Below, one piece after another: positions 51,955-54,398 of a stretch of DNA of 64,000 nt. Source of the DNA: Halorientalis litorea (lineage in GTDB: Archaea > Halobacteriota > Halobacteria > Halobacteriales > Haloarculaceae); assembly GCF_023028225.1 (NCBI RefSeq), contig NZ_CP095482.1, positions 248,001 through 312,000 on the forward strand. Reading direction: 5' to 3'. Below the pieces are notes generated by a model, which saw nothing but the letters and a program-made list of their open reading frames with translations, was not told the origin of the DNA and made no database searches. How positions within the stretch are numbered: position 1 is the first letter of the stretch; each line of letters opens with the position of its first letter. The position numbers and the translations under genes are program-made.

Positions 51955-52389
51955 TCAGTCGAGCGTGAACTCCCGGCCGCTCCAAGAGTCGATGTCTAGT
52001 TTGTACGGCGTGACCGTCTCCGAGTCGCCCCAGACGACGGGGTTCGGTGTCGACTGCGCAGTCTGTGCGAGGTTGGCGAAGGCCGGTTCCGCCTCCCGAT
52101 ACTCGATTTCGGTCAACTCTCCTTTGACGACGACGCTCCGCCAGCACTCGTCGGCGTCAGTCTCCTCGTAGACGGTGAAGCTCACCTCGGCGTCGCGTCC
52201 GAGACATCGCTTCTTCCGGCTGTCGTCGTCGCCTTCGAGTTGGACGGCGAAACAGTCACTGGCAGCGTCGTACCCGAACGCGATGGGGACCTGATACGGC
52301 GTCGGGTTGGGGTCGTCGTTCAACCCCAACACCCCGACTGCGTTCGTTTGGAGGACATCGACTACCTCGTCGTCCGTGAGTCGTCTCAT
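51955..52389 (-). CDS. pyridoxamine 5'-phosphate oxidase-family flavoprotein
   Basis: A 144-residue split-barrel protein (TDDEVVDVLQTNAVGVLGLN, PTPYQVPIAFGYD, AEVSFTVYEE, WRSVVVKGELTEI) typical of small haloarchaeal PPOX proteins that bind FMN or F420. Substrate unknown. It is divergent from the hemerythrin fusion; its GGTAAAATC box is at 52416-52424. Confidence 0.85.
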   Translation of the reverse strand: MRRLTDDEVVDVLQTNAVGVLGLNDDPNPTPYQVPIAFGYDAASDCFAVQLEGDDDSRKKRCLGRDAEVSFTVYEETDADECWRSVVVKGELTEIEYREAEPAFANLAQTAQSTPNPVVWGDSETVTPYKLDIDSWSGREFTLD

Positions 52390-52476: not shown

Positions 52477-52512
52477 CAAGAGTGGGACATGCCCGTGTTT
52501 TCAAAAATCGGG

Positions 52513-52531
52513 AACGGGATACCCCGTTTTT
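52513..52531 (+). terminator. hairpin plus T-run in the hemerythrin leader
   Basis: AACGGG-ATAC-CCCGTT (52513-52528) is a perfect 6-bp hairpin with a 4-base loop, followed by three more T. It lies in the leader between the strong TATA box and ATG 52557. It could be an attenuator-like terminator or a protein site. The same hairpin also overlaps the weaker promoter box. Confidence 0.4.
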
Positions 52532-52556: not shown

Positions 52557-54398
52557 ATGGCCCCATCGTCGCAGGAAGCGTTCGCGGAATGGGACAACGA
52601 CAGATACAGCGTGGGAATCGAACGGTTCGACGAGCAACACCAGCGGCTGTTCGGCCTGCTGAACGACCTCCACACGGCCATGGACGAGGGACACTCCGAC
52701 GAAAAGGTCGGTGACATCCTCCGGGAACTGGAGCGATACACCGACTACCACTTCGGAGACGAGGAAGAGTTCATGCAAGACTGTGGGTACGCGATGGACT
52801 GCTCGGACTGCTTTTTCAACCACCGCGAGATGCACGACGAGTTCGCCGAGCGGGTGACCGACCTCCGGGAGAAACACGAGAACGGCCAGTACATCACGAT
52901 GGAAGTGCTGACCTTCGTCCGTGACTGGCTGGACTCCCACATCGCCGCCAGCGACGTCGACCAGAACTACGGCGAGTACTACGAGGAAGAAGTCGAGGAC
53001 TACGAGTACAACCCCGGCGGCTTGCGGCCGAACCGAGGCGGCGACCGGACCGATACCGCCGACACCGACGACCAGCACGAGCAGGAGTTCGACCTGACCG
53101 TCGAGAGCGAGGTGCACGCGGGTGGCGACCGCTCGATACCGGAGGGGCCGCTCGCGGACTGGTTCAAGAGCCTCGCCGAAATACACGGGGAGCGGACGGC
53201 CGTCCGGGTCCCCGAGGGCGGACGCTACACCGAGCGGAGTTTCGATACCCTCTATGAACGAGCGCGAGAGGTCGCGGGCGGCCTGCTCAGTGACGCGTTC
53301 CGACCCGGCGACAGGGTCGCCATCGTCGCCGAGAGCGGGTACGACTGGTCCGTCGTCGAGATAGCGTGTCAGATTGCGGGCCTCGTCTCCGTCCCCATCT
53401 ATCCGTCGCTGGACAGCGAACAGACGCGTGCAGCCATGTCGAGCGCGGACGTGGACGGTATCGTCTGCGAGACGGAGACGCCCGGCGAGATTCAGAACGC
53501 GGCCGGCACGGTGGTCCACATCGCGGACCTGCCGACGGCCGACCCCCGGGCACTCCCCGGCTTCGAGGCGGACGACGACGACGTAGCGACGATCGTGTTC
53601 GACGCCAGCAGTCCGGACGAGCAGTCGGCCATCGCGCTCACGCACGAGAACCTGCTCGCGGCCGTCGGGTCGATACGTGCGGCCCTCCCGCTCGACCCGG
53701 GAGCGACAGGTGCCTTCCCGCTTCCGTTCGCACACGTGTTCCCCCGCGTCACGGCGTACTACCTCTGGTCGACCGGCGGGTCGGTCACGCACGTCGACCC
53801 CGGCGGCCTGACCGACGGACTCGCCGCACTCCAGCCGGACGTCGTCGTCGGCACCCCGCGCATCTACCAGCAACTGTACGGTACGCTACAGGACCGTATC
53901 GGTGACCTCGGGTGGATGAAGCGGAAACTCGCCGGCCGCGTCGCCAGTTACGGCCGCGGCATCGTCTCCGGGCGGGGCACCCCGTTCAAGTACTCCGCCG
54001 CGAACCGCCTCGTTTTCAAGCCGCTTCGCGAGGAAACCGGGCTGGCGAACGTGACGTACGCGCTCTCGGGTGCCGGCCACCTCGACGAACACCTCGTCCA
54101 CTTCCTCCGGGGCTTCGGCGTCCCCGTGAGCGAACTCCACGGGCCGGTGGAGGCCAGCGGCGTCGGGACGCTGAACCCCGCCGACGCCTACGAGCCGGGA
54201 ACTGCCGGGAGGCCGCTCCCGGGGACGGAGTTCGCACTCTCGGCCGACGGCGACGTGCTGGTCCGTGGTCCCACCGTGATGGCGGGCTATCTGGACGACG
54301 ACGCGACCGCTCGGGCGATTCGTGACGGGTGGTTACTGACCGGCGACACCGGGGCGTTCGACGAGGACGGCCGTCTCCACCTCGACCGAGAGGAGTGA
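52557..54398 (+). CDS. hemerythrin domain fused to truncated AMP-binding (acyl-CoA-synthetase-like) domain
   Basis: Residues 8-138 form a bacteriohemerythrin with all seven diiron ligands (H28, H65, E69, H89, H93, H128, D133). An insertion with C76, C82 and C85 separates the ligand pairs. Residues 190-613 resemble long-chain acyl-CoA synthetases, but the ATP loop TSGTTGxPKG is replaced by FDASSPDEQSA, the A5 Y-G-x-T-E motif is HGPVEA, and the frame ends after TGDTGAFDEDGRLHLDREE, before the hinge and C-terminal domain. A6 and A7 remain. It likely binds a ligand without catalysis. ATG 52557 (MAPSSQEAF). Confidence 0.88.
   Translation: MAPSSQEAFAEWDNDRYSVGIERFDEQHQRLFGLLNDLHTAMDEGHSDEKVGDILRELERYTDYHFGDEEEFMQDCGYAMDCSDCFFNHREMHDEFAERVTDLREKHENGQYITMEVLTFVRDWLDSHIAASDVDQNYGEYYEEEVEDYEYNPGGLRPNRGGDRTDTADTDDQHEQEFDLTVESEVHAGGDRSIPEGPLADWFKSLAEIHGERTAVRVPEGGRYTERSFDTLYERAREVAGGLLSDAFRPGDRVAIVAESGYDWSVVEIACQIAGLVSVPIYPSLDSEQTRAAMSSADVDGIVCETETPGEIQNAAGTVVHIADLPTADPRALPGFEADDDDVATIVFDASSPDEQSAIALTHENLLAAVGSIRAALPLDPGATGAFPLPFAHVFPRVTAYYLWSTGGSVTHVDPGGLTDGLAALQPDVVVGTPRIYQQLYGTLQDRIGDLGWMKRKLAGRVASYGRGIVSGRGTPFKYSAANRLVFKPLREETGLANVTYALSGAGHLDEHLVHFLRGFGVPVSELHGPVEASGVGTLNPADAYEPGTAGRPLPGTEFALSADGDVLVRGPTVMAGYLDDDATARAIRDGWLLTGDTGAFDEDGRLHLDREE

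Follow-up and report, generated by a model that had tools for sequence, protein, structure and literature searches.

A conserved haloarchaeal fusion of hemerythrin to a pseudo-acyl-CoA-synthetase core, with a candidate role in low-oxygen sensing

Architecture of the fusion gene

The window analysed here is a stretch of 64,000 nucleotides from Halorientalis litorea (contig NZ_CP095482.1, positions 248,001 to 312,000). On its forward strand, one open frame at 52557..54398 encodes 613 amino acids plus a stop and joins a hemerythrin (Hr) to an adenylate-forming (ANL) domain of acyl-CoA-synthetase type. An alternative frame of 638 amino acids begins at GTG 52482; the likely start is nevertheless the ATG at 52557, because orthologues, a TATA-like element and the operator described below agree on it. 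Pfam matched residues 20-131 to Hemerythrin (E 3.3e-12) and residues 207-579 to AMP-binding (E 1.5e-38; PF00501 133 bits, cut-off 29.9), and gave no match to the C-terminal AMP-binding domain in the 613-residue protein. The first-pass annotation had described a single frame with a complete diiron Hr and an adenylate-forming domain, and the two Pfam matches together with seven iron ligands confirmed that description.

The Hr domain covers residues 10-143 (52584..52985, + strand) and scored above cut-off for both Pfam PF01814 and NCBIfam NF033749; by the latter model it is a true bacteriohemerythrin (116.3 bits vs a cut-off of 84). All seven ligands are present in the window protein (H28, H65, E69, H89, H93, H128 and D133), which may bind O2 reversibly. 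Six of them were invariant in 36/36 distinct orthologues. The seventh, D133, was Asp in 31/36 and Asn in 5/36, so altered O2 chemistry is possible in those five members (L038, L041, L042, L044 and L048); D135 is invariant. Between Hr helices B and C lies a C76-x5-C82-x2-C85 cluster (52782..52811, + strand), invariant in 36/36 orthologues; it may be an extra redox or metal site.

A linker at residues 144-196 (52986..53144, + strand), variable in the alignment and with pLDDT <50 at 151-177, leads into the N-terminal core of the pseudo-ANL domain (residues 197-609; 53145..54383, + strand; PF00501). The core has no C-terminal domain, and the frame stops just short of the A8 hinge. Structure modelling, which the earlier annotation had proposed, returned a folded ANL core: the AF2 model of the fusion had a mean pLDDT of 83, most ANL blocks were at least 88, and the Hr part was less confident (blocks of about 50-83). 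In a Foldseek comparison with the PDB, the ANL core best matched N-terminal ANL domains, for example the FadD13 N-domain (TMt 0.82).

Catalytic decay, origin and constraint of the ANL half

The A3/P-loop of the window protein (residues 348-358; 53598..53630, + strand) reads FDASSPDEQSA where the canonical loop has YTSGTTGxPKG, and its A5 motif (residues 525-536; 54129..54164, + strand) reads HGPVEA where Y-G-x-T-E is expected. We compared 27 aligned family members with L090-L094, five long-chain acyl-CoA synthetases that are intact, come from sister genera and have the same core at 35-40% identity; retention was scored on the residues invariant in those five. Retention in A3 was 28%, and the P-loop lysine was found in 0/27 members vs 5/5 intact relatives. 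Every member of the family had lost this lysine and the entire C-terminal domain, which bears out the claims that the ATP loop is absent and that the frame ends before the C-terminal domain. Retention in A5 was 48% (Thr 13/27, Glu 19/27), the intact relatives having Y-G-A-T-E. The HGPVEA substitution noted previously is real in the window protein but is not family-wide; it is a derived state, and deep branches keep YGATELTG. Similarly, the A7 motif (residues 591-601; 54327..54359, + strand) retains TGD in the window protein, as had been noted, but its conservation is not a family feature: retention was 74%, and Asp stands in 14/27, the other members having Glu, Thr, Gln, Val or Lys. The A4 acyl-pocket motif (residues 387-404; 53715..53768, + strand) was kept, with 90% retention.

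This pattern makes AMP or ATP binding unlikely, because the nucleotide motifs decay while A4 is held. CoA binding in active ANL synthetases requires the C-terminal domain. The earlier proposal of AMP or acyl-CoA as the ligand was accordingly not supported: the nucleotide-contacting motifs decay, the C-terminal domain is missing and only A4 is held. A nucleotide-sensor reading was likewise weakened, since these motifs are not conserved in the family. The motif pattern would instead fit a fold kept for a non-nucleotide role, perhaps as an acyl pocket or a surface. The whole core and conserved A4 pocket might also suit a protein that is still an enzyme, with an activity independent of the P-loop and C-terminal domain, such as acyl-adenylate or thioester hydrolysis, for which the Hr would supply or sense O2. 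Some predicted pseudoenzymes do prove active, according to a review (PMC10211241). Given the decay of A3, A5 and A7 residues, down to complete loss of the P-loop lysine and Thr and Asp in about half of the members, we consider a surviving enzyme quite improbable.

The full-length fusion was found in 35/146 Haloarculaceae genomes, in genera that include Halorientalis, Haloarcula, Halomicrobium, Halosimplex, Halovenus and Salinibaculum; at E<=1e-100, no other family of the order yielded it. The orthologue search that had been suggested thus showed loss of the P-loop lysine and C-terminal domain to be conserved across genera. All intact copies end at the same ANL hinge, and with 35 genomes carrying the fusion, a C-terminal domain hidden by a frameshift or sequencing error was ruled out. 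Neither observation that the first-pass annotation had named as refuting its reading, an orthologue with intact loop and C-terminal domain or a hidden frameshift, turned up.

The fused ANL halves grouped as a single clade (100/99), whose sister group was the intact synthetases L090-L094 (99/98); a further intact synthetase from another family (L190) was not part of the tree. One fused clade sister to intact synthetases indicates a single origin of the fusion, the truncation and the P-loop loss. No genome with both the fusion and a close intact relative was found in the family search (E<=1e-40). An intermediate form, Hr joined to an intact synthetase, was sought and not found among 392 order-level genomes.

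Across 14 Haloarcula genomes, dN/dS was 0.028 for the Hr and 0.119 for the ANL half. The latter lies within the range of neighbouring genes (0.05-0.19), and the ANL half is therefore under ordinary constraint. By sequence criteria it is a kept pseudoenzyme under ordinary purifying selection. The earlier view that the fold is probably kept and selected was upheld by the PF00501 match, the AF2/PDB core match and this purifying selection. A decaying gene fusion with no function of its own is extremely unlikely: the gene is full-length in 35 genomes, with neighbour-like dN/dS and a conserved promoter and partner, and the constraint observed already refutes decay for most lineages. Individual degraded copies do occur and are what such a reading would draw on. 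In Halomicroarcula SYNS111, a remnant of the fusion gene (L049:8007-8402) has an internally deleted ANL core, and in G292 two frame-shifted copies (L097 and L078) lie near both ends of one chromosome contig, possibly an assembly overlap.

Promoter, partner gene and related hemerythrins

Upstream of the fusion gene, a dyad operator, GTTTTCA-N5-CGGGAAC, occupies 52497..52515 (+ strand) and starts 60 bp before the ATG. A TATA-like element, TTTTT, follows at 52527..52531 (+ strand), 26-30 bp before the ATG, as in a leaderless-type promoter. The operator was position-conserved in 36/37 orthologues, with TTYYCA-N6-GRGAA at -57 to -59 (in a few cases carrying one additional change) and, about 29 bp past the operator, a TATA-like element rich in T. 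The resulting consensus, roughly 60 bp ahead of the start, was GTTYYCA-N5-YGRGAAC plus a TATA box.

To survey this arrangement, Haloarculaceae genomes were scanned by pattern searches with the reversed pattern as control. GTTYYCA-N5-TGRGAAC-N6-14-TTTW was found in 48/142 genomes, and the reversed control in 0/142. At 21/30 inspected sites, a frame of 50 or more codons began with ATG 57-64 bp downstream; other 8-nt windows reached at most 5. Sites were located at window positions 52497-52515 and at loci L138-L162 and L224-L226.

In the genome of the window, one further operator (L224) precedes a ba3-oxidase-type small subunit, named by sequence likeness and context without a family match, and then a heavy-metal P-ATPase and a DsbD-like protein; another (L226) precedes UspA. 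Other genes downstream of operators encode halocyanin-type copper proteins, NosL, a multicopper oxidase, truncated globin, wHTH regulators and DoxX. A DmsR-type regulator gene (DmsR_N/HTH_10; L145) itself lies downstream of one operator. At L139, L143 and L146, the operator was also seen before Htur_1727/PaaB-like genes and, in L146, upstream of a TIGR04347 pseudo-radical-SAM gene. Low oxygen, copper and respiration are the likely common theme of this gene set. We therefore propose that the operator, about 60 bp before leaderless-type starts, marks a putative low-O2/copper regulon in Haloarculaceae, whose members would be induced at low oxygen.

A published haloarchaeal denitrification motif, from Haloferax, is CGAAYATDKTYG (PMC11218638). 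Identity of the operator with this motif was ruled out because the sequences differ. Within our partial coverage of the literature, nothing direct on the operator sequence was found. The published motif does not match here, and the operator and regulon offer a testable handle on haloarchaeal control of terminal oxidases, copper proteins and O2-binding proteins.

The fusion gene has a divergent neighbour on the reverse strand (51955..52389), 167 bp away, which encodes a 144-residue protein of the NimA/PNPOx-like split-barrel flavin type (PF12900, E 6.4e-15; 55.8 bits vs a cut-off of 27). Its AF2 fold resembles FAD/FMN-binding split barrels and NimA structures, and the modelled fold suggests that it binds flavin. 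It scored far below the curated NimABCDEF cut-off and is therefore not a Nim reductase equivalog. Strong orthologues (E<=1e-33) occurred in 28 genomes and were head-to-head with the fusion gene in 28/28. Besides this gene there were no conserved neighbours, the flanks varying between genera. It is the likeliest candidate for a redox partner of the fusion protein, with which it may interact.

The partner and the regulon bear on a role in nitric oxide or nitrosative stress, in which the diiron site would bind or reduce NO from denitrification, the flavin-type partner would be the electron source and the ANL half would recruit it. A NimA-like partner, and NosL and halocyanins in the regulon, are compatible with such a role. 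However, no denitrification gene cluster was present at the fusion loci examined, as judged by sequence clusters, and the regulon can equally be read as a set for O2 and copper. A first, sequence-based reading that placed NirK in the regulon was dropped, as the multicopper oxidase lies far below the NirK cut-off (NCBIfam), which also tells against an NO protein. We regard this role as unlikely.

Setting aside the query and fragments, Hr matches across the order (E<=1e-15) all belonged to the same subfamily, at 65-86% identity. At five loci (L014, L095, L219, L221 and L225), a stand-alone member is the immediate upstream neighbour of HemAT (Protoglobin + MCP), in an apparent Hr-HemAT operon; at L096/L220, one stands directly upstream of a truncated globin-sensor frame. 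At L096 and L225, the dyad operator stands 60-62 bp before the start of the stand-alone Hr. By gene order, the linkage to HemAT, a globin-coupled aerotaxis receptor, would tie this Hr subfamily to oxygen sensing. Our partial literature search found nothing direct on Hr with HemAT. HemAT itself differs from the fusion in being a heme protein with MCP output, and the fusion gene studied here does not adjoin it.

Proposed function and comparison with known systems

These features suggest, tentatively and at a little less than an even chance, that the fusion is a diiron sensor or adaptor of a low-oxygen regulon with a non-catalytic module of acyl or docking type. The Hr domain would bind O2 (or NO, or shift its redox state) at the two irons, and the joined acyl-CoA-synthetase core, using no ATP and making no acyl-CoA, would serve as the output. 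Depending on the iron state, this core might hold a ligand of acyl or other hydrophobic type, or dock on a partner. Expression would come from the dyad-operator promoter common to terminal-oxidase, copper and globin genes, and the protein would work with the NimA-like flavin-type product of the divergent gene. The promoter regulon and the HemAT linkage lend support to an O2 or redox role for the Hr, as had been proposed from the sequence, but not to the ligands proposed with it. Characterised Hr chimeras are O2/redox sensors, as described in a review (PMC9388753). The word sensor is taken from context, because no known signalling output domain is attached. Against a sensor, the partner is absent beside the fusion in 7/35 genomes (one Haloarcula subclade, one Salinibaculum and one fragmentary MAG). 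Moreover, the rates of the two halves are fourfold apart and the linker is variable, and they thus provide no argument for tight mechanical coupling in any relay from the Hr to the ANL half.

The same rates, with constraint on the Hr much the stronger, and the same linker would suit a protein that buffers or delivers O2 in microaerobic growth, its dead core only anchoring the Hr to the membrane, or else to a complex for respiration or lipid handling, with no relay. An operator common to ba3-oxidase and globin genes is in keeping with this. But the ANL half is whole, with A4, in every genus, which is beyond the need of a mere anchor, and the Hr also occurs on its own, linked to HemAT. We consider buffering or delivery rather doubtful. 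The diiron sensor or adaptor, taken further, could be the first O2/redox sensor with a pseudo-acyl-CoA-synthetase output, the iron state gating an acyl-type ligand or a partner. With the flavin-type protein it would form a two-gene module, controlled by a haloarchaeal low-oxygen/copper operator not described before. This extended form is speculative, at perhaps a one-in-three level of belief.

The earlier statement that no system of this layout had been described went a little too far. Euryarchaeal sequences that combine Hr and AMP-binding in the same Pfam architecture, assigned to 'Methanococci', are listed by Alvarez-Carreno et al. 2016 (PMC4919030). That entry is one survey line, in which catalytic loss, promoter, partner and haloarchaeal distribution are unmentioned, and the death of the domain was not noted. 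The Hr-ANL fusion is real and conserved and, as far as our partial coverage of the literature shows, not previously analysed as a pseudoenzyme.

The intact haloarchaeal synthetases (L090-L094 and L190) share 35-41% identity over the whole core but have YTSGTTGxPKG, a full C-terminal domain and LTPTLKKR, and lack an Hr. As isolated ANL core folds, the FadD13 N-terminal domain structures (3t5b, 3t5c and 5zrn) are among the best matches (TMt about 0.82), but these are crystallised pieces of an active enzyme and no natural truncation. In DIP2, FLD2 (PMC9342972) is a degenerate ANL domain inside a fusion protein, with adenylation motifs lost and a non-catalytic role proposed; it differs in being eukaryotic, FAAL-derived, paired with an active FLD1 and without Hr. 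The present fusion would be a natural example of an ANL core kept after catalysis was lost. Like it, the Hr sensor chimeras DcrH MCP, Bhr-DGC and Bhr-HD-GYP combine a complete diiron Hr with a second domain, but that domain is a recognised signalling or active-enzyme output in place of a dead metabolic-enzyme core, and an acyl-CoA-synthetase-like output is not listed among Hr sensors in the accessible part of the review (PMC9388753). Known Hr-sensor outputs include chemotaxis and c-di-GMP; a dead metabolic enzyme as output, if true, would be a new kind of wiring.
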